Source: Candidatus Eiseniibacteriota bacterium
GTDB taxonomy: Bacteria > JAFGKV01
Direction of reading: 5' to 3'
Assembly: GCA_025453925.1 (NCBI GenBank)
Contig: JALOPK010000018.1
Coordinates: 1 to 20,088 of the forward strand
DNA length: 20,088 bases
Made by a program: the position numbers and the translations under genes. Below, piece by piece: positions 7,090 to 20,088 of this stretch (the stretch's first letter is position 1; every line of letters begins with the position of its first letter). Below the pieces are notes generated by a model that was given only the letters and a program-made list of their open reading frames with translations, had not been told where the DNA came from and searched no databases.

Positions 7090-7531
7090 CCGTTTCTCCC
7101 GAGTCAGAGCACTCACTCACCATCGCCGTGCGACCAAGGCGCGTGAGGAAGCGGAGGGGCCACCAAGGACTCCGGGCCACCGGTCCGCCGCAAGTGTCCC
7201 GTTTCGGCGTGCTGCCACACCGATGCGTGGAGCACGTCGGCACACCATGTGTCTCCCCGGCATTCACTCCCGCCGGCCGGCCCCACGCGAGAAGCGGTGG
7301 TGTCCCCGGGTTTCGCGAGACCGCACGACCGCCGACATCGGCGCCTCTGCCGCGCCCACACCATCGACCGTGACAAGTAGACATACGTGATGCTAGTCTG
7401 TCAGGGTCGTCTCCCGCGTCGACCTCGCGACCGGCGAAGCGGTTCGCCGGCGATCGAGCGGGTGGGAACAACGGACCGTCACCTACTGTGGGTTTTCTTA
7501 TACAACTCCGGGAATCCCGATGGAGGCCCCA
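7090..7531. other. 442-bp divergent intergenic region
   Basis: This separates the minus-strand vanZ-like gene from the plus-strand methyltransferase gene and should hold promoters for both. The only promoter-like sequence found is the plus-strand candidate at 7370-7399. Short open frames here have no Shine-Dalgarno sequence or recognisable domain. No tRNA-like or repeat structure was seen. Confidence 0.45.
7370..7399 (+). promoter_or_regulatory. Candidate sigma-70 promoter for the methyltransferase gene
   Basis: GTGACA (-35-like) is followed after 18 bases by TAGTCT (-10-like), with a TGn extension directly before the -10. Transcription from here would give a leader of about 125 bases. This is a pattern match only. 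A second weak -10-like TATACA lies at 7499-7504. Confidence 0.3.
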
Positions 7532-8686
7532 ATGTCGCTCACACAGGTTCTTCACCATCAAGCGCTCCTCCAGGATTCGATCCGCATGACCGCCTACCAT
7601 CGGGCGATCTCCGAGGTGGTGCGTCCCGGAGATATCGTCATCGACATCGGAACGGGAAGCGGCATCCTCTCATTTCTGGCCGCGAAGGCCGGTGCCCGCA
7701 GGGTGTATGCCATCGAACACGGTGACATCATCAACGCCGCGCGGAAACTGGCGGAGGTGAATGGGCTTGGGTCTCAGATCGTCTTCGTGCACAGCCACTC
7801 GGCGGCCGCGGAGATTCCCGAAACCGCCGACGTGGTGCTTTCGGAGATACTCGGCCACTTCGGAATCGAGGAAGACGCGCTGGCCGTTTCCGGGTGCGCC
7901 CGGGAGAAGTGGTTGCGCCCGGGTGGTACGATGCTGCCGGCATGGCTGGCAATCAATCTGGTGCCGGTGGCCTGCCCCTCGGTGTGGGAGGCAATCATCG
8001 GCTTCTGGCAACGGGGCCTCCATGGCGTTGACTTCTCAGCCCTGGCGCGACTCGCGCATCAGACGCCCCACCTCCACGACTGCACAAGTGCGGTTGGCGT
8101 GGCCCCCCCCCAGACGGTCGCTCGCTATGACTTCGCTTCCGTCGAGAACCCACCCGCGGTTCTTGACTACTCCGCCGAGTTCATGGTGTGCCGGTCGGGC
8201 ACGCTGCACGGCCTCGTGGGCTACTTCGAGGCAGGGCTGTCACCCGGTGTGAACATCAGCACCGGTCCTCATGCTCCGTTGACACACTGGAAGCAGATGT
8301 TCTTTCCAGGAGAGGTTCCGGTCCCGGTGGAGCCGGGCGACCGGATCATGTGCCGTCTCAAGCGGGGGCAGGGCGGCGTGCGGTTCTGGTTTTGGTCGGT
8401 TGTGGTCACGCGTGGAACGAAGCGCCTCGGGCAGACAATCCAGTTCGCCCCTGCCATGGAGATCTCCCCGCGCATGGTCCAGGTGACCGAGTCTGGCTAC
8501 GTGCCGCGCCTCAGTCAGGCCGGCGAGGCGAGACGCCGGCTGTTCGAGCTCAGCGACGGGCGTCGCACCCTGGGCGAGATCAGCGCCCTCCTGTATGCCG
8601 AGTACCCCACCCTGTTCTCCGACATGGCCGATGCGAGGCTTCAGGCCGCCAGTTGGCTGTGGCGGCTTCTGGCGAAGACCCCCTGA
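7532..8686 (+). CDS. PRMT-type methyltransferase with C-terminal PqqD-like domain
   Basis: A 384-residue SAM-dependent methyltransferase of the protein arginine methyltransferase fold. Visible elements in order are: the pre-motif helix LLQDSIRMTAYHRAI (like the PRMT MLxDxxRxxxY segment), motif I DIGTGSG (38-44), acidic Glu62 for the ribose, the double-E loop SEILGHFGIEE with Glu105 and Glu114 nine residues apart as in PRMT1, and the THW loop at 251-253 (LTHWKQMFFP). Residues about 315-381 form an extra domain, LFELSDGRRTLGEISALLYAEYP then SWLWRLLAK, which matches the helical part of PqqD/RRE leader-binding domains. The substrate may therefore be a leader peptide-bearing RiPP, probably the CxxG peptide at 12783. 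The start at 7532 has GGAGG five bases upstream; an ATG at 7520 is the alternative. Confidence 0.85.
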   Translation: MSLTQVLHHQALLQDSIRMTAYHRAISEVVRPGDIVIDIGTGSGILSFLAAKAGARRVYAIEHGDIINAARKLAEVNGLGSQIVFVHSHSAAAEIPETADVVLSEILGHFGIEEDALAVSGCAREKWLRPGGTMLPAWLAINLVPVACPSVWEAIIGFWQRGLHGVDFSALARLAHQTPHLHDCTSAVGVAPPQTVARYDFASVENPPAVLDYSAEFMVCRSGTLHGLVGYFEAGLSPGVNISTGPHAPLTHWKQMFFPGEVPVPVEPGDRIMCRLKRGQGGVRFWFWSVVVTRGTKRLGQTIQFAPAMEISPRMVQVTESGYVPRLSQAGEARRRLFELSDGRRTLGEISALLYAEYPTLFSDMADARLQAASWLWRLLAKTP

Positions 8687-8710: not shown

Positions 8711-9943
8711 TTAGGGGCGGGCGGGGCGCTGGTCCTTCGAATCTTCGAAACGGGTGACGTCGCGGACTCGGCGAACCGCCCGCACGACCGCACGCATGGT
8801 CATAAGGAAGAGCTTCAGTGTGACGCGCACCACGCGAATGCCCCGGTAGAGAAACGCCGTTCGGACTGGCAGGTCCACCAAAGCAATGTCGCGGGGACCG
8901 GGGCTGAAAGGCAGCGAGGTGAAGAAATGCACGTGGGCGGGCAGTGAGTCCAACGCACCCAGCAGGCGAAGGTCGCGCCGCACGATCCCCGGGATCTCAC
9001 ACTCCGGCCGCAGGATCTCGTCTCGGGCGGCAGCGATCCGGCGAGCGACAGGGGTGATCCCGCGGCTCGCCCGTAGGAGCTGTTCAGGGATCGCTGCGTC
9101 AAGAAGCTCGTGGGCCAGCCCGACTCCGATCAACACCATGCGAGACTTCCCGGCCTTGACGGCGTGTTCCATGACCAGATGCCAGTCATCCGGGGAGAGC
9201 TCCCGCGCCGCTGCCGAGATGTCCGCGATTCTGAACACCGCCCGCCATGAGTCAACGGCGGCTCGCGCGCAGAAATAGAGAAGGAGATCCGGGGGGCCAA
9301 GCGTCTCGAACCGGTAGCCGGCGAGGTTGGCGGACACCGCCCGATCCCACATCCCGCGCTCATCAGGCAAGAGCTGGAGCTGATCCGCCAGAAGCCGCCA
9401 GTGAAGGTCGACATGGAAGGATCCGCCTTCTGAGCCGAACACCCACGCGTTCCGGTAGCGGCGGAGAGCGGCGAGCTGTCGCGGCGAGAGCGGCGGCAGG
9501 GGGGTCAGGCCGCGGTCCTGCAGCGTGCGCCCTGCACGGGAGAAGTCCCGTTCGGGCACCAGGATATCCAGATCGGTTGACTGGCGCAGACCGAGGTCGC
9601 CATACGCCATGTGTGCGGTGAGGGGGCCCTTGAACGTGATCGCCCGAATCCCGGCTTCCCGCAACGAATGGGTCAATCTGACCAGCGCCACGAGCACCGC
9701 GAGGTTGCGGGAGGCCGTGTCCCGGTAGGATGCCGCAAGATGATCGAGAACAGACGGGGGCACCGCGCCGGCATGCGGGCTGAGATGCCGGTGGAGAAAC
9801 GGTTTCATTCGGTGCGGGCTGGCGAGGCGGACCACAAGCTCCCAGTCGATGGGCTCCTGGAGTGCACGTCCGACCAAATGGGACGCGGCGGTGTTCCCGG
9901 CTTCCCGGGCGCAGGCGAGTATCAGTCTGGCCTCGTGCGTCAT
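8711..9943 (-). CDS. PF14907-type nucleotidyltransferase family protein
   Basis: A 410-residue protein of the nucleotidyltransferase group that often occurs in lasso peptide and other RiPP clusters beside PqqD-like and HprK-like proteins. Key features are an N-terminal helical part with PIDWELVVRLASPHRMKPFLHRHL, FKGPLTAHMAYGD at 104-116, the metal-binding strand QSTDLDILVPE with Asp124 and Asp126, and HVDLHW at 177-182. The target of nucleotidyl transfer is unknown. It converges with the methyltransferase gene (24 bp between stops) and diverges from the PqqD-like gene, sharing a 268-bp upstream region. The frame stays open upstream to 10363, but that extension runs antisense through the PqqD-like gene and is rejected. 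The ATG at 9943 gives the family-like N terminus despite lacking a clear ribosome site. Confidence 0.8.
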   Translation of the reverse strand: MTHEARLILACAREAGNTAASHLVGRALQEPIDWELVVRLASPHRMKPFLHRHLSPHAGAVPPSVLDHLAASYRDTASRNLAVLVALVRLTHSLREAGIRAITFKGPLTAHMAYGDLGLRQSTDLDILVPERDFSRAGRTLQDRGLTPLPPLSPRQLAALRRYRNAWVFGSEGGSFHVDLHWRLLADQLQLLPDERGMWDRAVSANLAGYRFETLGPPDLLLYFCARAAVDSWRAVFRIADISAAARELSPDDWHLVMEHAVKAGKSRMVLIGVGLAHELLDAAIPEQLLRASRGITPVARRIAAARDEILRPECEIPGIVRRDLRLLGALDSLPAHVHFFTSLPFSPGPRDIALVDLPVRTAFLYRGIRVVRVTLKLFLMTMRAVVRAVRRVRDVTRFEDSKDQRPARP

Positions 9944-10129
9944 ATCGGATCGCGATCTGCGGGCCCACGCCACGCGTGGAACTCGTGTCGGGGTTGCGGA
10001 CGCTGTCGATGGGGGCAGGCGGGAATCCCGCCATGCTCGGGCCCGGGAGCGAATCGGGTCGTTCCCGGCCAACATCGCGCCACAGGCCGCTGAGGTCAAA
10101 TCGAGAAGTGGAGTGAGAACGCCTACTGC

Positions 10130-10158
10130 TTGCAGAATGACCGCCACGGGCCTACATT
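10130..10158 (+). promoter_or_regulatory. Candidate promoter of the PqqD-radical SAM operon
   Basis: TTGCAG (10130-10135) and TACATT (10153-10158) are separated by 17 bases, the sigma-70 optimum, and lie about 54 bases before the PqqD-like start codon. Each box matches its consensus only partly. The position in the divergent gap is what makes it credible. Confidence 0.35.
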
Positions 10159-10211
10159 TGTGGGCTGTCTCCACTGACACTGACACCGCCACTCCGAATA
10201 CCGAGGGAATC

Positions 10212-10514
10212 ATGGGAATCGACGTTACACCCGCAACTGTCCTCCGTCGCAATCCTGACGTTGTGCTTCGCGAGGAAGACACGGACGGGGCTCTGTTGTT
10301 CAACCCCGACACCAACCAGATCCGCGTCCTCAACGCCACGGGCCTGTTCGTCTGGAAGTTCATGGATGGAACACGAGATCTGGGGGCGGTGGTTGCTTCG
10401 TTCCGTGAGTCCTTCGAGGAGGTTCCCCAAGAGGTGGAGGCCCACGCCTTGGCATTCGCCGGCGAGATGGCCGCGGCCGGATTCCTCCATCCGACCGACT
10501 CTCCCCAGGCGTGA
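10212..10514 (+). CDS. Stand-alone PqqD-like RiPP leader-binding protein (ScmD-like)
   Basis: A 100-residue protein of the PqqD family, which binds RiPP leader peptides and delivers them to radical SAM enzymes. The pattern is canonical: a beta-strand segment VVLREEDTDGALLFNPDTNQIRVLN, then ATGLFVWKFMDGTRDLGAVVASF (the winged-helix region with the DGTRDL turn), then a final helix ending EMAAAGFLHP. It is the first gene of the plus-strand cassette and ends 15 bp before the first radical SAM gene. In the SynChlorMet cassette the PqqD-related protein occupies the same position relative to ScmE and ScmF. The ATG at 10212 is preceded by GAGGGA. The naming as ScmD is from memory of the family set and needs an HMM check; the PqqD-like call itself is secure. 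Confidence 0.87.
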   Translation: MGIDVTPATVLRRNPDVVLREEDTDGALLFNPDTNQIRVLNATGLFVWKFMDGTRDLGAVVASFRESFEEVPQEVEAHALAFAGEMAAAGFLHPTDSPQA

Positions 10515-10529: not shown

Positions 10530-11636
10530 GTGGGCCTTCAGAAGTTCCCCCAAGAGTGCAATATTGCCATCACCGGCCGATGCAATCTTCGATGCCACTA
10601 CTGTTTCTACGCCAATGAGATGACGGCCCTGGCCGATCTGCCGACCGCCGTCTGGCTCTCCTTCTTCGAGGAGCTTGGGCGGCTCGGTATGATGAGAGTC
10701 TGCGTGGCCGGCGGGGAACCATTCGTCCGTCCCGACCTTTTCGAGTTGATTGACGGCCTGATAGCGAACCGCATGCGCTACAGCGTGCTCAGCAACGGGA
10801 CTCTCATTGATGAGAACATGCTCGCGAAGTTCGAGGTCGGCAAGAGGCGCCTTCGCCTCGACTACATCCAGATCTCCATCGACGGTTCGTGCGCAGAGAT
10901 TCACGACAAGAGCAGGCCGGGCAGCTTCGAGAAAGCGATCAGGGGACTGCGGCTTCTCATGGAGCACCGATTCCCAATGGCCGTCCGTATCACGATCAAC
11001 CGGCACAACCTGCACGATCTGGAGAATACTGCCAAGCTGCTCCTTGAGGACATCGGCGTCCCCTCGGTGGGGACCAATGATGCGATGCCCATCGGATCGG
11101 GATGCCCCAATGAGCCGGAAGTCGCCCTCACGCCGCGTGAGTACCTGGTCGCCATGAAGACAATGGAACGGCTGCGAACCCGGTATCCCGGCAGGCTGAC
11201 GGCGACCGCGGGACCCCAGGCGAGGCTGAAGATGCAGGCGGAGATGGAGGAAGCCAAGCGAACCGGGGTGAAGACCACCCGCTGGGGCATGGGATACCTC
11301 ACGGCGTGCGGCTGCATCTTCAACAAGCTCGATTTTCTCCACGACGGGACCATTGTGCCGTGCAACATGCTTCCCGATCTCAAACTCGGGAACATCACCA
11401 CGGACTCGCTTGAGGAGATCTGGCGCGACCATCCTACACTGCGCGCGCTACGGGAGCGTCGGTTCATTGCCATGCGTGATGTCCCCGGATGCGGGGATTG
11501 TGAGTGGAACGAGTACTGCAACGGGAGCTGCCCCGGCCTGGCGCACCAGATGCTGGGCGACTTCAACCTACCCAACCCCCGTGACTGTTACCGTCGTTTC
11601 CTCGAAGACACCAAGGAGACGGAATGTCCTGCCTGA
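10530..11636 (+). CDS. Radical SAM/SPASM peptide-modifying enzyme, ScmE-like
   Basis: A 368-residue radical SAM enzyme. The SAM-cluster motif CNLRCHYC (Cys18, Cys22, Cys25) is CX3CX2C, and GGEP at 61-64 contacts SAM. The C-terminal SPASM domain has CGDC-EWNEY-CNGSC, an exact CX2CX5CX3C at 321-334, plus Cys353 and upstream Cys residues in TACGCIF and VPCNML, enough for two auxiliary iron-sulfur clusters. Segments such as MMRVCVAGGEPFVR, MRYSVLSNGTLI, LDYIQISIDGS and the GYLTACG region closely follow what I recall of ScmE of the SynChlorMet cassette. SPASM enzymes commonly modify RiPP precursors, for example by forming thioether or carbon-carbon bonds. The GTG start at 10530 gives a natural N terminus with a weak ribosome site, suggesting coupling to the PqqD-like gene. 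Confidence 0.9.
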   Translation: MGLQKFPQECNIAITGRCNLRCHYCFYANEMTALADLPTAVWLSFFEELGRLGMMRVCVAGGEPFVRPDLFELIDGLIANRMRYSVLSNGTLIDENMLAKFEVGKRRLRLDYIQISIDGSCAEIHDKSRPGSFEKAIRGLRLLMEHRFPMAVRITINRHNLHDLENTAKLLLEDIGVPSVGTNDAMPIGSGCPNEPEVALTPREYLVAMKTMERLRTRYPGRLTATAGPQARLKMQAEMEEAKRTGVKTTRWGMGYLTACGCIFNKLDFLHDGTIVPCNMLPDLKLGNITTDSLEEIWRDHPTLRALRERRFIAMRDVPGCGDCEWNEYCNGSCPGLAHQMLGDFNLPNPRDCYRRFLEDTKETECPA

Positions 11637-12769
11637 CCGAGAAACAAGAACCGGTCGCACCGACCGACCCTGCCGCGCCGCTGGACCTCCCTCCGGGAGT
11701 GCCGCCGCTCACGTCGCTTTACCTTTATGTCTCCGGTGGCTGCAACCTGGCATGCCAGCACTGCTGGATCACGCCCTCCTTCGATCCATCGGGGGCGAGC
11801 GCGCAGCACGTGAAGCTGGAACATGTCGCCAAGGCCATCCGGGAGGGCTTCCCCATCGGCCTGCGGACGATCAAGCTGACCGGCGGTGAGCCGATGCTCC
11901 ATCCCCGTTTCCGGGAGTTGGTGCAAATGATCGCCGAAGCCAGGATCGGCATGTCCATGGAGACCAATGGAACCCTCATCGACCGCGACCTCGCCCGCTT
12001 CCTCAAGGAACACCGGTTCGCGCAGATCTCCATCAGCGTAGACGGGCCAACCGCCGAGGTTCACGACTCGCTTCGCGGAGTCCCCGGGGCATACGCGCGG
12101 GCGATCGCTGGGATCGGGCATCTGGTAGAGGAAGGCATGCACCCACAGATGATCTGCACCTTGCACGACGGCAATGTCGCGCATGTCGATGCGGTCATCG
12201 AACAGGCTGAGAGGCTGGGCTGCAACTCCGTGAAGTTCAACCACGTGCAGGTGGTCGGGAGGGGAGACCTCTTCGCCAAGAAACACGGGCTGACCGTCGA
12301 GGGCTTGCTCGAGGTGTACCGGCACATCGACAAGCAGGTCAGGCCCACGTCCAAGATCCCGGTATACCTGGACATCCCGGTGGCATTCCATTCGATCCGT
12401 CAGCTCAGCAAGGCTCCGGGAGGGAGATGCGGCATTCTCACCATCCTCGGCATGCTCTCCGGCGGGGACCTCGCCCTGTGCGGCATCGGCGTCAACGTCC
12501 CTGAGCTTGTGTACGGGCACATCGAGACCGACAACTTGAGGGATGTGTGGTGTTTCAGCCCGGGTCTGATCGAGCTCCGAGACCTGATTCCGGCCAAGTT
12601 CGACGGCATCTGCGGCAACTGCGTGCTGCGCGACACCTGCCTGGGGTCCTGCGTGGCCAACAACTTCTATGTTGCGGGGCGGCTGAACGCCTCGTACATT
12701 TTCTGCGATACTGCGAATACTCTCGGTCTGTTTCCCGCGTCTCGTATGCGGGTTGGCTCCTTAGCCTGA
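11624..12769 (+). CDS. Radical SAM/SPASM peptide-modifying enzyme, ScmF-like
   Basis: A 381-residue radical SAM enzyme overlapping the previous gene by 13 bases. The N terminus PLTSLYLYVSGGCNLACQHCW carries the CX3CX2C motif at Cys40, Cys44 and Cys47, followed by IKLTGGEPMLHPRF and SISVDGPTAEVHDSLRG. The C terminus has GRCGILTILGML, LALCGIGVNVPELVYGH and the SPASM signature CGNC-VLRDT-CLGSC (CX2CX5CX3C at 330-343) with a final Cys361. These segments match the ScmF family of the SynChlorMet cassette as I recall it, especially CGIGxxVPELVxGH and the ending GLFPxxR. The ATG at 11624 has AAGGAG six bases upstream. With ScmE, the likely substrate is the CxxG peptide encoded 13 bp downstream. Paired radical SAM enzymes may carry out sequential modifications or form a complex; this is inference. 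Confidence 0.92.
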   Translation: MSCLTEKQEPVAPTDPAAPLDLPPGVPPLTSLYLYVSGGCNLACQHCWITPSFDPSGASAQHVKLEHVAKAIREGFPIGLRTIKLTGGEPMLHPRFRELVQMIAEARIGMSMETNGTLIDRDLARFLKEHRFAQISISVDGPTAEVHDSLRGVPGAYARAIAGIGHLVEEGMHPQMICTLHDGNVAHVDAVIEQAERLGCNSVKFNHVQVVGRGDLFAKKHGLTVEGLLEVYRHIDKQVRPTSKIPVYLDIPVAFHSIRQLSKAPGGRCGILTILGMLSGGDLALCGIGVNVPELVYGHIETDNLRDVWCFSPGLIELRDLIPAKFDGICGNCVLRDTCLGSCVANNFYVAGRLNASYIFCDTANTLGLFPASRMRVGSLA

Positions 12770-12770
12770 T

Positions 12771-12778
12771 AGGGAGGA
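12771..12778 (+). promoter_or_regulatory. Strong ribosome binding site of the CxxG peptide gene
   Basis: AGGGAGGA lies four bases before the ATG at 12783 and is the strongest Shine-Dalgarno sequence in the cassette. It fixes the peptide's start and implies high translation, as expected for a RiPP substrate made in excess of its enzymes. Confidence 0.75.
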
Positions 12779-12782
12779 AACC

Positions 12783-13058
12783 ATGGTAAAACGCGTAAGG
12801 CCTGTCTACGAGCCTCCCCGCGCGAGGGACCTGTCGGGCCTCGGAGTCGTCGGCCAATTGCCATTGGGCGAGTGCATCAACGGGGCCTACCCCTACACCA
12901 ATTGCCTCGCCGGCCCGGGGTTTTTCAGCCCGTGCACCGTCGGAGCGACAGCCGATACATCTTCTTGTGTCGGCGGCACGTTCCACAACCAACCGACCTG
13001 TGCTCAGGGCCGCAGCGCAGTGACGATCTGCCTCTCCGGCCAACAACAGAACTTCTAG
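12783..13058 (+). CDS. Putative RiPP precursor peptide with six periodic C-x-x-G motifs
   Basis: A 91-residue peptide with no signal peptide. Residues 1-30 look like a leader: basic and Pro-rich at first (VKRVRPVYEPPRARD), then LSGLGVVGQLPLG. Residues 31-91 are the probable core, with exactly six Cys at 31, 41, 51, 62, 73 and 83, spaced 10, 10, 11, 11 and 10. Each is followed by Gly at +3: CING, CLAG, CTVG, CVGG, CAQG and CLSG. The spacers are rich in Ala, Thr, Ser, Pro and Asn and carry few charges. It lies between two SPASM radical SAM genes and a HprK-like gene with an ideal ribosome site, which is the expected place for their substrate. A metal-binding or ferredoxin role is unlikely because the Cys are not in CxxC groups. 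Whether it belongs to a named Scm family (ScmA or ScmB) I cannot say. Confidence 0.8.
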   Translation: MVKRVRPVYEPPRARDLSGLGVVGQLPLGECINGAYPYTNCLAGPGFFSPCTVGATADTSSCVGGTFHNQPTCAQGRSAVTICLSGQQQNF

Positions 13059-13108: not shown

Positions 13109-13325
13109 TACAACTGTGCAATCTCGAGCTTCCTTCCTCGGGCAGCCTGGCGCATTCCCGCGAGGGTTCTGCGCCTTCTCTCTGTCGTGGTCGTGTGGTC
13201 GTAGAGGAATCGCCTGGCCGGTCATCGAGATCGCCCAGGTGTGCGTCTCGAAGCGAGTATCCCTTTAGGGACAGGTGTCGCCACTCCCTGGGAAGCGTTG
13301 TTGTCACACACGCCGGAGCGGGCCA

Positions 13326-14249
13326 GTGGACCATGAATACCGTCATCGCATTGGCCACCTTCTCTTCAGCACGTCCACGGATGCCCCCATCCCCCACTTG
13401 CTGGAGTGGCCCTATTCGGCATTTGAAGCGCCAACCCCGTCCGCTCCGGATGTAAGGAATCGCATCCGGAGAATGCCGGGTCCCCTCAGCGGCGCTCGGC
13501 TGTCGCTCGAAGAACGAAAGACAATCCAGCGATGCCCCCACTTCGTTCCGCGTTGGGCGAACCATCCGGTTCTCGCGACATCACCGGTGAAGGAAGTCAT
13601 CGAGGAATGCCTCCTGGCTCCCGAGTCTGTGTTCATTGAGATGGCCTGGAACCGGATCGTCATCAGGAACTTCCGGCTCAAGATCTGCGACCTGTTCTAC
13701 CCGCCTGATGGGCGAGAGCCACTCGCGGATCCATTGTTCGTTGCCGGATATCGAAACATGATAGGCAGCTTTCTCAGCGGGTTCAGCCGTGCTCTCGTGC
13801 ATGCGGCGGGCGTGGCACTCGATTCCCGAGCGGCCGTGTTCCTCGGTCCTGACGATGCGGGGAAGACGACTGTCGCTCGGTCTGCAACACTCCGCCCCGT
13901 GCTGAGCGATGACCACCTTCTGATCACGCATGATGGAGGGCAGTCAATGGCTCATGCGACCCCGTTCGGCAACTTGACCGCTGGACCCAACTCGGCGCGC
14001 GTCGGAGCCTTCTTCGTCCTGGAGAAATCATCAGCGTTCGAGATCGAACCGATGCGCCAGGCCGAGTTCTTCGAGTTCCTCTGGGAACAAGCGGGGCATA
14101 CGAAGTACACTTTGCCCCGGGAAGACGCGGTTGCCCATCTGGATCTCCTGCGGGCCATCAGCCGATCGGCTCCCGTGTTCCGCATGCGATTCGAGAGGAA
14201 CTTCATCAACTGGGATGCCATCGATTCGGCAATGTTGAAGGGGGCCTGA
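13326..14249 (+). CDS. HprK-like P-loop protein, ScmC-like
   Basis: A 307-residue protein related to the C-terminal catalytic domain of HPr kinase/phosphorylase. SRALVHAAGVALDSRAAVFLG (about 154-174) is the strand and turn before the P-loop GPDDAGKT (174-181). LSDDHLLI with Asp195-Asp196 and PFGNL follow at the positions seen in HprK-related RiPP-cluster proteins. Such proteins accompany PqqD-like proteins and nucleotidyltransferases in lasso peptide clusters, and ScmC in the SynChlorMet cassette is a HprK-like member as I recall it. It may phosphorylate the peptide or act as an ATP-driven helper. The GTG at 13326 is chosen because GGAG lies seven bases upstream and the protein then begins naturally with VDHEYRHRIGHLLFST. 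A GTG at 13275 is possible. It lies 267 bp after the peptide gene. Confidence 0.82.
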   Translation: MDHEYRHRIGHLLFSTSTDAPIPHLLEWPYSAFEAPTPSAPDVRNRIRRMPGPLSGARLSLEERKTIQRCPHFVPRWANHPVLATSPVKEVIEECLLAPESVFIEMAWNRIVIRNFRLKICDLFYPPDGREPLADPLFVAGYRNMIGSFLSGFSRALVHAAGVALDSRAAVFLGPDDAGKTTVARSATLRPVLSDDHLLITHDGGQSMAHATPFGNLTAGPNSARVGAFFVLEKSSAFEIEPMRQAEFFEFLWEQAGHTKYTLPREDAVAHLDLLRAISRSAPVFRMRFERNFINWDAIDSAMLKGA

Positions 14250-14367
14250 CCTTGAGGTGCCCCTGGCGTGGAGGCTGCATGCCGGGAGCCCCATGCGCAC
14301 TTTTGCTTTCCCGGCACGTCTCTGGTCCGGGACAGGCGTCACCCCGCAGAGGGGTGCGGAGCCTCAG

Positions 14368-15348
14368 ATGACCGATCGTACCGGCTCCCCACCGATCACG
14401 GAACTCAGCATCTCCTACACGCTGCGATGCACCAGCGCGTGCCGGCACTGTGCCGTCGAGTCGTCGCCTGAACGTACCGAAAAGCTCAACCCTGATGACG
14501 TGCTACCCCTCCTCCCCGCCCTTCATGCACACGGCGTGCGCAGGTTTCTCCTCACCGGCGGCGAGCCTGCGCTCTACGTCGATGAACTGGCGCACATCAT
14601 CCGGCCCACACAGTCCTATGGGTGGAGGGTCGCGGTGTTCAGCAACGGGTTCTGGGCCGTTTCCGATGAGGATGCGCGTTCATGGGCCGCGGACTTCCGG
14701 GGGGCCGGGATTCACCACGTCTTCTTCAGCACGAGCCGCTACCACCGCGAGTTCGTCCCCTCTGCGAACATCCTCCGGGCCGCTGCCGCCCTGGAGCGTC
14801 ATCACCTCACGTCACACGTCCACTGCCACCTCGACCGGACGAGGAACGTCGGCGACCTGCTGGTGGCCGCCGAACTGGCCGAGCGAGGCGTCCCGTGCTC
14901 GCCCTTCGTGCTCTGCCCCGAAGGCCGGGCGCGAGATCTGACCGATCAGATCGAGCTCCTCGGTGCGCCGAGGGGCCAGGTGCCGAAGGAACGGTGCGCC
15001 CTTCAGCACCAGATCTTCATCGACACCGGCGGCGTGGCGATGCGGTGCTGTGCGGCCGCCGACCGAATGGAGCGTCTCGAAAACCGAGACTTCTACTGCT
15101 ACGGCGACGTGCGCCAGCACACGATCGAAGAAATCCTGGACGGCATGGCGCCATGGACTCCCCTGTTCGCCCTCCTGAATCGTGAAGGTCCCGCGGGAGT
15201 GTGGGGGTGTCTCGCCGGCCAACTGGCGGGAACCGGCTTCTCCCTTCGAGATAGGTACTACTCTCACTGCGATCTGTGCACTGACCTCTTGGGCAATCCC
15301 CGCGTGCTGCACGTCGTGCGAGACATGTTCAGGATTCCCCCTCCCTGA
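14368..15348 (+). CDS. Third radical SAM protein of the cassette region
   Basis: A 326-residue radical SAM protein with CTSACRHC (CX3CX2C; Cys21, Cys25, Cys28) and TGGEP at 63-67, confirming SAM-cluster binding. The C terminus has further Cys residues: ERCALQ, AMRCCAA, YCYGDV, WGCLAG and HCDLCTDLLG. These suggest at least one extra iron-sulfur site of Twitch or divergent SPASM type, but the classical CX2CX5CX3C is absent. The N-terminal motif ITELSISYTLRC resembles that of peptide-modifying radical SAM proteins. It follows the HprK-like gene by 118 bp on the same strand, so it may be a third tailoring enzyme of the peptide or a separate unit. The ATG at 14368 has GGAG six bases upstream; an ATG at 14293 with GGGAG is an alternative adding 25 residues. 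Confidence 0.82.
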   Translation: MTDRTGSPPITELSISYTLRCTSACRHCAVESSPERTEKLNPDDVLPLLPALHAHGVRRFLLTGGEPALYVDELAHIIRPTQSYGWRVAVFSNGFWAVSDEDARSWAADFRGAGIHHVFFSTSRYHREFVPSANILRAAAALERHHLTSHVHCHLDRTRNVGDLLVAAELAERGVPCSPFVLCPEGRARDLTDQIELLGAPRGQVPKERCALQHQIFIDTGGVAMRCCAAADRMERLENRDFYCYGDVRQHTIEEILDGMAPWTPLFALLNREGPAGVWGCLAGQLAGTGFSLRDRYYSHCDLCTDLLGNPRVLHVVRDMFRIPPP

Positions 15349-16331: not shown

Positions 16332-16667
16332 ATGTCACGAATGATCGCCGTGTGCGGCCTTGTGTGCTCGGAATGCCCGGCCTATGTAGCCACCAAGGCC
16401 GGCGACTACGAGGCGCTGGTGAGAGTCGCCGAGCTCTGGAGCAAGGAGTACCACGCTGATCTGACACCCGAGGGGTGCCGCTGCGATGGGTGCCAGGATG
16501 CCGGTAGACGCCATATCGGCCACTGGTCGGAATGCCAGATCCGCCTGTGCGGCCATAGCCGTGGCCTGGAGACCTGCGCGTCCTGCGCGGATTATGCATG
16601 CGAGAAGCTGACCGGGTTCTTCGGCATGGTGCCCGCGGCCAGGGCCAATCTGGACGCGCTGCGCTGA
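16332..16667 (+). CDS. DUF3795 cysteine-rich protein
   Basis: A 111-residue protein matching DUF3795 by its cysteine layout: MIAVCGLVCSECPAY at the N terminus, CRCDGC in the middle, then ECQIRLCGHSRGLETCASCADYACEKL. The ten or so Cys residues suggest metal or iron-sulfur binding, but the family has no established function. The ATG at 16332 follows a very strong ribosome site (AGGAGGGAGAG). The next gene, a radical SAM protein, begins 20 bp downstream, so the two form a small operon. Confidence 0.83.
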   Translation: MSRMIAVCGLVCSECPAYVATKAGDYEALVRVAELWSKEYHADLTPEGCRCDGCQDAGRRHIGHWSECQIRLCGHSRGLETCASCADYACEKLTGFFGMVPAARANLDALR

Positions 16668-16687
16668 GTCTGCCGGGGATCCCTTCC

Positions 16688-17503
16688 TTGGCTGAGCCTT
16701 CGATCCGTGAAGTTGCCTGCAAGAGTGCCCTGACCAGATCGCGCATTCCGTCACTCGACTATGTGGTCAACCCCTACGCGGGGTGCGCGCACGGGTGCGT
16801 GTACTGCTATGTCCCTTCCATGCCGTGGGTCGCCGGCAGGCCGGAACCGTGGGGCAGCTATGTCGACGTGAGGATCAACGCGCCGAGCGTGTTGGCCCGT
16901 CAGCTCCGGCGCGCGGGACCTGGTTCCGTCAATCTCAGCACGACCACCGATCCCTACCAACCCGCGGAAGCACGGTATCGGCTTACTCGGGCGTGCCTCG
17001 GGCTCTTGGCGGAGGCGGGGAGACCGGTGTCGATCCTCACCAAGTCCCCTCTGGTGACCAGAGACCTCGACATCCTCGCGCGATTCCCCGACGTGGAAGT
17101 CGGATTTTCCATCGCGTCAGTGAATCAGGAGCTGATCAACTGGTTTGAGCCCGCCACGCCCCCCGTCGCGGCACGACTCGATGCGCTCTCGATGCTGGCC
17201 GATTCAGGCATTCGAACCTACGCCTTCCTCGGACCGCTGCTGCCCTTCCTGAGCGACTCCGAGGAGGACATCGGGCGGCTGGTGGCCGAAGTAGCCCGCA
17301 GGGGAGTGTCGTCACTGATCGCGGACAGCATGAACCTGCGAGGTGTCGCCGTGCAACGGATGTGCCGCATTCTGTGCGGGCGGCGGCCCGACCTCGTGGT
17401 GCGTTATCGTGCGATGAGCCAGGGGCGCACAGCCTACCACAGGTCGCTTCGCGAGGTTGTTCGCGCCCAGGCCGCACGGTACCGGCTCGAGGTCGTCATG
17501 TAG
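16688..17503 (+). CDS. SPL-family radical SAM protein (spore photoproduct lyase-like)
   Basis: A 271-residue radical SAM protein. The N terminus AEPSIREVACKSALTRSRIPSLDYVVNPYAGCAHGCVYCY carries CX3CX2C (Cys33, Cys37, Cys40) and matches the group annotated as SPL family radical SAM proteins. NLSTTTDPYQPAE and the RPVSILTKSPLVTRDLDIL segment are also typical. Members resemble spore photoproduct lyase, but most come from non-sporulating bacteria and their substrates are unknown. The start is taken as TTG at 16688, since this yields the normal family N terminus and follows a GGGGAT ribosome-like sequence. An ATG at 16598 lies inside the DUF3795 gene and would add an unrelated 30-residue tail. Confidence 0.83.
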   Translation: MAEPSIREVACKSALTRSRIPSLDYVVNPYAGCAHGCVYCYVPSMPWVAGRPEPWGSYVDVRINAPSVLARQLRRAGPGSVNLSTTTDPYQPAEARYRLTRACLGLLAEAGRPVSILTKSPLVTRDLDILARFPDVEVGFSIASVNQELINWFEPATPPVAARLDALSMLADSGIRTYAFLGPLLPFLSDSEEDIGRLVAEVARRGVSSLIADSMNLRGVAVQRMCRILCGRRPDLVVRYRAMSQGRTAYHRSLREVVRAQAARYRLEVVM

Positions 17504-17577: not shown

Positions 17578-20088
17578 TCAGGGATCCCGCGGGTGAAGGC
17601 GCGGAGCGAGCCCCGCGAGTGCGGCCTCGATTACCGGCATGAGCGATTCAGTCGTGAGGGATCTGGCTCTGGCCGTGACGGCGTCCAGTGCGGCGGCGCC
17701 AAGTTCCTTCTCGAGCTCCTCCATTGCATCGGCTGCCTCACGCCTGGCCTTCGATTTGGCATCGCCGCTGGCAAGGATAAACGCGTGAAGCAGGGCGGCA
17801 TGCTCGTGGGCGCCGAGGTGCTGCATGATTGGCGCGAAGCGGCCCGCAAACCCGACGATCAATGCCCTCGCGTTGATCTCCACGGCGATCCGCAACCCCT
17901 CCCCATACGCCTCGATCGCTGAATGGGCGGCGCCATTCGCACGGTGCGCATCGCCCGCCTCTTCGAGCGCCGTACAAAGACTCCATCTCTCCCCGAGTTC
18001 GCGGAACAGCGCTACCGCGGCGTCCACGCTGGCGATCGCCTGTTCCCGTTCGCCAAGGGCCTGGCACGCCCGCGCCAGGGCAACAAGCGCAAGCCCTTTT
18101 CCCCTTCGCTCGCCGGTCTTCTCATGGATCTCCAGGCTCTCACGATTCAGGCGCTTCGCCTCGCCGTGGTTCCCCGTGACGCCCTCCAGAGTGCCCATCT
18201 GGTAGAGCGCATGGGCGGTGCCATGCTCGTCACCCATCTCCCGCGCGACCTCGAGGCTCTCGCGGTAGCACTGCCGCGCGGTGGTGAAATCGTCGAGGGA
18301 GAACGCGACGTTCCCGAGGTTACCCAAGGCCGTCCGAATCCCGCGCCGGCTCCCTATCTCGCGATTCACCGCGAGTGCAGCCTGGTAGTGCTCCCGGGCA
18401 GGAGCCATTTCGCCGAGGCAATAGGAGGCGTTCCCGAGATTGTTCAGGGCCATGGCGACGGTGCGGCGGTCCCCGGCTTCGCCCAGGATGGAGAGCGACC
18501 GAGCATGCCACGTCTGGGCGTTCGCGTACCCACCCCGATACATCTCGATGCTCCCCATCGCGTCACAGCACTGGGCGAGAAGCAAGTGGTCGCCGCAGGC
18601 GGTCGCATGCCGCAAGGCCTCTTCGAGCAACGCAGCGGCGTCCTCATAGTGACCCTCCCTGCCCGCATTCCCCCCAAGGCCGAGCAGTGCCATGGCCAGG
18701 TCGCGCGGAGTCCCATGTTCTCGAAGAAGCCCCATCGCTTCCTCATACCGATCGCGGGCGACGCCGAACTTGCCGAGTGCCTGATTCGTGTCGGCCTGGA
18801 GCACGAGGGCCACGCCGAGCAGACGCCGTACCGCGTCGACGGCGCCCGTCCCTCCGCCCGAGGCGGCCCGGAGGACCTGGATGGCCTGATCGAGCGTCTG
18901 GCCGTCGACCGCCAGCCACCCGCGACCGTGAAGGAACGCATGCAGCGCGGAGAGAAAGCCTTCCAGCGCGTCGAGTTCGAGATGCGTCAAGGCCCAGTCA
19001 AGCCCGATCCGCATGTTGGCGAGCTCCTCCTCCATCTCGTCGAACACGGCCTCGGCGCCGCGCTGGTGGAGCCGTCCACGTCGTTCACTGACGTACCGGG
19101 CGAAGTAATCGGCGTGGACCTGCCGGGCCTGCCGCAGCGCCTCCCCGTCGAGGGAGAGCTGACTCCCCACGAACTGCCGAAGGAGCTCGTGCAGGTGGTA
19201 GCGATCGGTCGTGTCGCGGGAGATCAGTGACCTGTCCATCAGCCCGGCGAGGAGGTGAAGATCGGCGCCGATGTACTCCGCTGCCTCGCGACGGAAGCCG
19301 TGACCGAATACCGAGAGACGTCCCACCACAGACCGTTCGCGATCACTGAGGCGACGCCATGACTGGGAGAGCACGGCAGTCATGCTTCGGTGGTGCGCGG
19401 GAACGTCGCGTGCCGATGTGGTGAGAATGCCGGCATCTCGTTCGATCTCAGCGAGAATCTCGGCGCATGTCAGGACCCGAGCCCACCCCGCGGCCATTTC
19501 AATCCCCAGCGGGAGGCCCTCCAAGAACCGGCAGATGCGAACCACCGACGCCACATCCGTGACCGCGGCCGCAACTGTGGCATTCATGCGATTCGCGTGC
19601 TCCAGGAAGAGTCGAACGGCGTCATACTCCACGACGTCGTCGCCCGTGTCGTGAGGGGGCACTGGAAGCCCTCGCACCGGCATCACGTGTTCGTAGCGCA
19701 GGTCGAGTCGCTGCCGTGAAGTGATCAGCAGCTTGAGGCCGCTGGTCCGCGCGAGGAGTTCCGTCACGATGGGTGCGCCGTCCAGAAGCCGGTCGAAGTC
19801 GTCCAACACGAGAAGGAGTTGCTTGCCGCGGAGGAATCCCGCGAGCTGTTCCGTCGGGTCGCGTCGCCCGGAGAGCTGAAAGGCCAGCGCGCTGGCGATT
19901 GCCAAGGGGATGAACGCGGGAGACTGGACAGGATTCAGCGGCACGAGGCAGGATCCGTCGACGAACAGCCGCGCCAGCTCTTTCGCGGCCTCGTATGCAA
20001 GGTGGCTCTTGCCGACTCCCCCGGGGCCCGTCAGGGTGAGCACCCGGCACGACGACTCGCCCAGCATGGCGCCTATGGCATCCAACTC
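17578..20088 (-). CDS. STAND-type NTPase with TPR repeats, 5' end off the window
   Basis: An open frame of 836 visible residues reaching the right edge, so the N terminus is missing. It begins inside the common pre-NTPase motif ELDAIGAML. The NTPase domain has Walker A GPGGVGKS, the Walker B strand LLLVLDDFD, the sensor-like LLITSRQRLDL and LEGLPLGIEMAAGW, the pattern of AfsR/NB-ARC-like STAND regulators. A winged-helix linker region (LSDRERSVVGRLSVFG, LLRQFVG) follows. About nine tetratricopeptide repeats then run to near the C terminus (for example ALNNLGNASYCLGEMAPAREHYQAAL). Such proteins usually carry an N-terminal transcription-factor, kinase or cyclase domain and act as signal-responsive regulators; that domain is not visible here. 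It is convergent with the SPL-like gene. Confidence 0.87.
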   Translation of the reverse strand, partial: ELDAIGAMLGESSCRVLTLTGPGGVGKSHLAYEAAKELARLFVDGSCLVPLNPVQSPAFIPLAIASALAFQLSGRRDPTEQLAGFLRGKQLLLVLDDFDRLLDGAPIVTELLARTSGLKLLITSRQRLDLRYEHVMPVRGLPVPPHDTGDDVVEYDAVRLFLEHANRMNATVAAAVTDVASVVRICRFLEGLPLGIEMAAGWARVLTCAEILAEIERDAGILTTSARDVPAHHRSMTAVLSQSWRRLSDRERSVVGRLSVFGHGFRREAAEYIGADLHLLAGLMDRSLISRDTTDRYHLHELLRQFVGSQLSLDGEALRQARQVHADYFARYVSERRGRLHQRGAEAVFDEMEEELANMRIGLDWALTHLELDALEGFLSALHAFLHGRGWLAVDGQTLDQAIQVLRAASGGGTGAVDAVRRLLGVALVLQADTNQALGKFGVARDRYEEAMGLLREHGTPRDLAMALLGLGGNAGREGHYEDAAALLEEALRHATACGDHLLLAQCCDAMGSIEMYRGGYANAQTWHARSLSILGEAGDRRTVAMALNNLGNASYCLGEMAPAREHYQAALAVNREIGSRRGIRTALGNLGNVAFSLDDFTTARQCYRESLEVAREMGDEHGTAHALYQMGTLEGVTGNHGEAKRLNRESLEIHEKTGERRGKGLALVALARACQALGEREQAIASVDAAVALFRELGERWSLCTALEEAGDAHRANGAAHSAIEAYGEGLRIAVEINARALIVGFAGRFAPIMQHLGAHEHAALLHAFILASGDAKSKARREAADAMEELEKELGAAALDAVTARARSLTTESLMPVIEAALAGLAPRLHPRDP

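Follow-up and report, generated by a model that had tools for sequence, protein, structure and literature searches.

A peptide with six CxxG units beside ScmE- and ScmF-like radical SAM enzymes, a candidate precursor of a sactipeptide-like RiPP

The window, by which we mean the whole stretch of 20,088 nucleotides that was analysed, contains a cassette of RiPP-type genes arranged around a short ORF with a regular cysteine pattern. The features of the cassette are as follows.

8711..10363, minus strand: NTP_transf_5 nucleotidyltransferase, divergent neighbour (PF14907, E 3.9e-49; relatives found by BLAST close to other ScmF genes)
10212..10514, plus strand: ScmD/PqqD-like RiPP recognition element (RRE), with the ATG taken at 10212 (TIGR04248, 63.6 bits, cut-off 100; PF05402, E 1.4e-12)
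10530..11636, plus strand: ScmE-like radical SAM/SPASM enzyme with CNLRCHYC and SPASM cysteines (TIGR04250, 389.9 bits, cut-off 400)
11624..12769, plus strand: ScmF-like radical SAM/SPASM enzyme with CNLACQHC and CGIG (TIGR04251, 346.6 bits, cut-off 400)
12764..12782, plus strand: Shine-Dalgarno sequence GGGAGG, then a short spacer up to the ATG, directly 3' of the ScmF stop codon (by eye)
12783..13058, plus strand: precursor peptide of 91 residues with six C-x-x-G units (ORF translation)
12807..12833, plus strand: leader recognition motif Y9-E-P-P-R-A-R-D-L17, which fits [YW]xxPx[LVIFA]xx[LIF] (translation and homologue comparison)
12873..13058, plus strand: core with the six CxxG units, from C31 to the end (translation and homologue alignment)
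13275..14249, plus strand: ScmC/HprK-related kinase with P-loop GKTT, LSDD, and TPFG (NCBIfam matches of relatives; predicted PEPCK fold)
14257..15348, plus strand: third radical SAM gene, weakly similar to YydG peptide epimerases (TIGR04078, E 3.8e-22, 79 bits, cut-off 300)

The precursor translates to MVKRVRPVYEPPRARDLSGLGVVGQLPLGECINGAYPYTNCLAGPGFFSPCTVGATADTSSCVGGTFHNQPTCAQGRSAVTICLSGQQQNF and is preceded by TAGGGAGGAAACCATG. Its cysteines lie at positions 31, 41, 51, 62, 73, and 83, at intervals of 10, 10, 11, 11, and 10 residues, each is followed by glycine at +3 (6/6), and residues 1-30 are free of cysteine. These positions agree exactly with those claimed in an earlier note on this DNA, and the good ribosome site described there is likewise borne out, as the GGGAGG before the ATG is strong by eye. 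The same pattern was never reproduced when the core was shuffled (six CxxG in 0/200,000 shuffles; the best result, five, occurred 8 times), and six random positions are spaced as evenly as these cysteines with P = 2.4e-4. At the DNA level, the 30-base units share a pairwise identity of only 0.20-0.53 and use differing codons, which rules out recent DNA duplication as the origin of the period and agrees with the earlier proposal that it is kept at the protein level. Furthermore, dN/dS values of 0.12-0.37 in four close homologue pairs indicate purifying selection under which the pattern is retained. Thus, given the shuffles, the even spacing, the lack of DNA repeats, and the selection acting on homologues, 12783-13058 is a real gene and no chance ORF. 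The only point in favour of a chance ORF or an unrelated Cys-rich protein is that the precursor has no Pfam or NCBIfam match; the shuffles, dN/dS, and the synteny and co-occurrence described below all contradict this explanation, which the comparative data already refute and to which we attach next to no weight.

The radical SAM pair has ScmE (E 9e-117) and ScmF (E 2e-103) as by far its top NCBIfam matches, and TIGR04248 is likewise the top match of ScmD, although all three proteins score under the curated NCBIfam cut-offs. ScmE and ScmF also match many other SPASM families in NCBIfam, including PapB, AhbD, and GeoRSP, with no special tie to sactisynthases, and a sequence comparison with the PDB did not tell radical SAM chemistries apart. 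The AlphaFold model of ScmF (pLDDT 89) has the sactisynthase SkfB as its top Foldseek match, but SuiB, which makes a Lys-Trp crosslink, and anSME are almost as near, so the fold does not fix the chemistry of ScmF.

Downstream of the precursor, the kinase model (pLDDT 87.5) has PEPCK as its top Foldseek matches; PEPCK and HprK belong to one superfamily. The kinase itself has no match to the ScmC model (TIGR04249), and of 11 aligned relatives six match TIGR04249 and six match TIGR04352 (HprK_rel_A). Together with the PF14907 protein, a probable tailoring enzyme, this places both an HprK-like kinase, as judged by fold and homologues, and an NTP transferase in the cluster, as in LPP. Whether the third radical SAM gene is part of the cassette is uncertain, as no close homologue was found near the other ScmF genes examined; its product might add D-residues. 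The SipW-like peptidase motif occurs in no window ORF, and no exporter was found among the window ORFs examined. Since the window spans an entire contig and the assembly is fragmented, the leader peptidase and exporter may lie elsewhere in the source genome. Several other genes flank the cassette: a PRMT-like methyltransferase (7520-8686) whose C-terminal end looks PqqD-like by eye and which is a possible extra tailoring enzyme, and, both recognised by eye only, an Rv2578c-like radical SAM protein (16598-17503) and a large P-loop/TPR regulator (17578-20088).

To place the precursor among its relatives, a profile was built from ten ScmF proteins; 546 relatives were confirmed, of which the best 80 were taken as loci. 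The corresponding records are named Aminicenantes, Chloroflexi, Fermentibacteria, Omnitrophica, Deltaproteobacteria, Verrucomicrobia, Nitrospirae, WOR-3, Riflebacteria, Bacteroidetes, and methanogenic archaea, among others. An ORF with at least three CxxG motifs is present at 59/80 of these loci, a count that includes a few spurious cases, and several of the remaining loci are on cut contigs; a relaxed count of 73/89 loci, which includes spurious ORFs, was set aside. Such ORFs are concentrated on the ScmF strand, both within 1 kb downstream of the gene (37/298 ORFs, compared to 2/366 on the opposite strand) and at 1-2 kb upstream (10/261 vs. 0/303). The family is large and almost unstudied, and its members accompany pairs of radical SAM enzymes in archaea and in many phyla of bacteria. 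The precursor size varies: one locus (L016, 3026-3736) encodes a 236-residue precursor with 20 CxxG motifs, and two Bacteroidota-type loci (L048 and L057) encode tandem sets of two to five short peptides, most of which have two CxxG units.

Among 479 cysteines in 80 peptides from 67 loci, glycine follows at +3 in 411 and at +4 only in 46 more. Glycine at +3 or +4 thus follows 95% of the cysteines, and no other residue downstream of Cys is nearly as constant, with glycine at other offsets near or below the shuffle level. As the selection required three CxxG motifs, the fair figure is the one obtained when three selection units are left out, which is glycine at +3 in 171/237. Two features outside the selection criteria also recur: the Cys-Cys distance peaks at 10 (148 cases) and 11 (85 cases), and alanine or proline occupies +6 in 54% of the units. 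The resulting unit consensus is CxxGxxAxxx, repeated about every 10 residues, and that of the alignment is KYExP....L...(CxxGxxAxxx)n. The number of cysteines is odd in 47/80 peptides, which argues against disulfide pairing.

In the clade of the window, the gene order ScmD-ScmE-ScmF-peptide-kinase is kept at loci L024, L025, L027, L031, L032, L036, and L037, and with one extra ORF at L033. At most loci of this clade, the kinase is followed by a protein of ~200 residues with the motifs SM..F..GD, HR, and GDxN, which we take to be the signature of SipW-type signal peptidases; Pfam gave no match for this protein. ABC exporters are common at the loci of relatives. Two loci of the clade with SipW-bearing relatives, L025 from Chloroflexi and L027 from Aminicenantes, also encode proteins with a PqqD-domain C-terminus behind a weak sulfotransferase match (L025, 11926-12747; L027, 11434-12231), which may be tailoring enzymes with their own RRE.

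The leader provides a further link to known recognition systems. Residues 9-14 of the precursor, YEPPRA, match the LPP-type leader motif [Y/W]xxPx[LVIFA], which discrete RREs bind in both lasso and LPP systems (PMC13381572). Although it was no selection criterion for the ORFs counted, this motif is found in 48 of the 61 CxxG ORFs near ScmF and in 249 of 7,645 other ORFs, and with a Leu-like residue at Y+8 the counts are 47/61 and 60/7,645. The earlier note had read the peptide as a RiPP substrate consisting of a leader and a repeated core, and its own test was that homologues keep the Cys/Gly period and stay linked to radical SAM genes. They do both with respect to ScmE and ScmF, and together with the leader motif this supports that reading.

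Peptide and ScmF also co-occur genome by genome. In a set of 145 genomes, the peptide profile and ScmF were found in the same eight, all of which had helped to build the profiles. In 81 other, held-out genomes from the phylum of G047, six have both, again the same six, and 75 have neither, with no discordant case. Peptide and ScmF always lie on one contig within 2 kb in these six genomes, and the held-out loci share no DNA similarity with the training loci. One further genome in the phylum of G079 was concordant. A sample from the phylum of G121 was not counted as held out because the peptide of one genome is identical to that of the training locus L063 and a contig of another matches the contig of L067 in length; two genomes in this phylum (G242 and G243) seemed to have ScmF without the peptide, but each had a short, weak candidate below the threshold. 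Two tandem CxxG peptides, both with five units, are also encoded at a second locus of the source genome (L132; G000:C279, ~13154-13621), where their neighbours are a PqqD-domain protein, a glycosyltransferase, and an HprK-like protein; the stretch read at L132 contains no radical SAM gene. Since ScmE and ScmF exist in the same genome, these peptides may be modified in trans, or they may not be modified at all.

Taken together, we propose, with a probability of roughly 0.55, that the peptide is an ScmA-like SynChlorMet RiPP precursor of a diverged branch, in which ScmE and ScmF make a row of Gly(+3) sactionine rings. In this scheme, ScmD would bind the leader at YEPPRARDL, as discrete RREs do in lasso and LPP pathways. 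The ScmE/ScmF pair, possibly with a division of labour, would then move along the core and connect each Cys sulfur to the alpha-carbon of the glycine at +3 (sometimes +4). With Gly(+3) as acceptor, the thioether could only be a sactionine, because the alpha-carbon is all that glycine offers, and a beta- or gamma-thioether is impossible. Of the thioethers considered in the earlier note, the backbone type has a CxxG precedent in streptosactin, which the note did not name; the side-chain type falls away with glycine as acceptor. We infer that the units are modified and all alike, and the precursor would probably become a series of small rings closed by sulfur, with unnested four-residue sactionine rings as the predicted product, six for 12783-13058. 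The HprK-fold kinase, perhaps with the NTP transferase, may decorate Ser/Thr residues of the core; phosphorylation of the peptide is likely by analogy, as serine phosphorylation by the kinase and, where present, SipW-like leader removal are extrapolated from LPP. Finally, the leader would be cut off and the product exported; relatives carry a SipW-like peptidase for the first step and an ABC exporter for the second. The product is probably a secreted or envelope peptide. Extended to the whole family, the proposal becomes more tentative, and we place it slightly below even odds: a widespread class in many bacterial phyla and methanogenic archaea, in which ScmE/ScmF would stitch each Cys to the backbone of Gly(+3), yielding poly-sactionine products in which 2 to 20 small rings form a ladder on a phosphopeptide chassis of the LPP type.

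The main competing explanation keeps the peptide in the same RiPP family but assigns it another modification: a bond from Cys to a side chain, as in ranthipeptides, a C-C crosslink, or epimerisation. Gly(+3) would then serve only for a turn. It gains from the many SPASM families matched by ScmE and ScmF and from the SuiB fold being nearly as close to ScmF as SkfB; the alanine or proline at +6 in about half of the units would also be compatible with it, and two enzymes could yield two different changes. However, the constancy of glycine at +3/+4 and the crosslink at the identical spacing in streptosactin speak against it, and we regard a different bond as rather unlikely, while still a serious competitor to the sactionine rings. 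A more distant option is that the product is mainly an LPP-like phosphopeptide, whose Cys-Gly units stay uncrosslinked in vivo or engage only in metal or disulfide bonding, the radical SAM pair acting elsewhere. LPP-type parts do occur in the family, and L132 shows CxxG peptides on a stretch read without radical SAM genes. Yet the odd cysteine counts, the genome-by-genome co-occurrence of peptide and ScmF, including the subthreshold candidates in the two apparently peptide-less genomes, and the lack of any mention of radical enzymes in the LPP paper (PMC13381572) speak against it and make it improbable.

Under the sactionine proposal, the product would be a RiPP that resembles sactipeptides, depends on ScmE/F, and is built on an LPP-like chassis. 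SynChlorMet cassettes are named in databases, and searches of open-licence full texts for SynChlorMet, ScmE/ScmF, and CxxG with radical SAM found no relevant paper or product. The repeated CxxG unit leads to a clear chemical prediction, a loss of 2 Da per Cys with glycine as the acceptor, and peptides of 2 to 20 units would represent natural length standards for enzyme processivity. The features shared with the LPP/paeninodin chassis point to a single modular system of leader recognition, kinase, and export for lasso, linear phosphorylated, and radical-SAM peptides. In addition, most hosts of the family are known through metagenome-assembled genomes, and the RiPPs characterised from such genomes are few.

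Variable degrees of similarity are found to known systems. Ranthipeptides such as freyrasin (PapA/PapB) have CX3D/E acceptors and resemble the cassette in that their Cys units are repeated and a SPASM enzyme is present; instead of a side-chain acceptor at a fixed Cys spacing, the conserved partner here is glycine at +3/+4. LPP clusters consist of the genes A, K, B, S, D, and N, and no radical SAM genes are described for them (PMC13381572); their phosphorylated serine lies close to where the core begins. They and paeninodin-type lasso systems have the Y/WxxPx[LVIFA] leader, the discrete RRE, the HprK-like kinase, and the NTP transferase in common with the cassette, and among relatives the likeness extends to an ABC exporter in many and a SipW-like peptidase in some. 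In contrast, the core here is composed of CxxG units, and no lasso cyclase is seen in the cassette. As in sactipeptide systems, the cassette has a SPASM radical SAM maturase encoded next to a precursor that contains cysteines. Thuricin CD also employs two radical SAM enzymes (TrnC/TrnD), which work as one complex, but differs in its nested topology, two precursors, and leader. A chemical parallel is streptosactin (GggA/GggB), a type II unnested sactipeptide in which the SPASM radical SAM enzyme GggB makes two unnested four-residue rings by Cys31-Gly34 and Cys25-Ser28 alpha-thioethers, with the same Cys-Gly i+3 spacing. Whereas streptosactin has two rings in a 14-mer made by one enzyme, the peptides here have 2 to 20 units with a period of ~10, two enzymes, a separate RRE, and a different leader, and their rings are predicted. 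In gene content, the cassette resembles the predicted SynChlorMet cassette (TIGR04248-TIGR04252, ScmA-ScmF), with ScmD/E/F as top matches, albeit below cut-offs, and an ScmC/HprK-like kinase and a CxxG precursor alongside. The peptide family is therefore not entirely new, as the ScmA model TIGR04252 indicates that curators had predicted a SynChlorMet precursor; the model misses the precursor of the window, and used alone to search for relatives it found almost nothing. Pfam matched 0/58 family peptides and TIGR04252 matched 11/58, about a fifth, so that the family defined by CxxG units and leader is far wider than the ScmA model.
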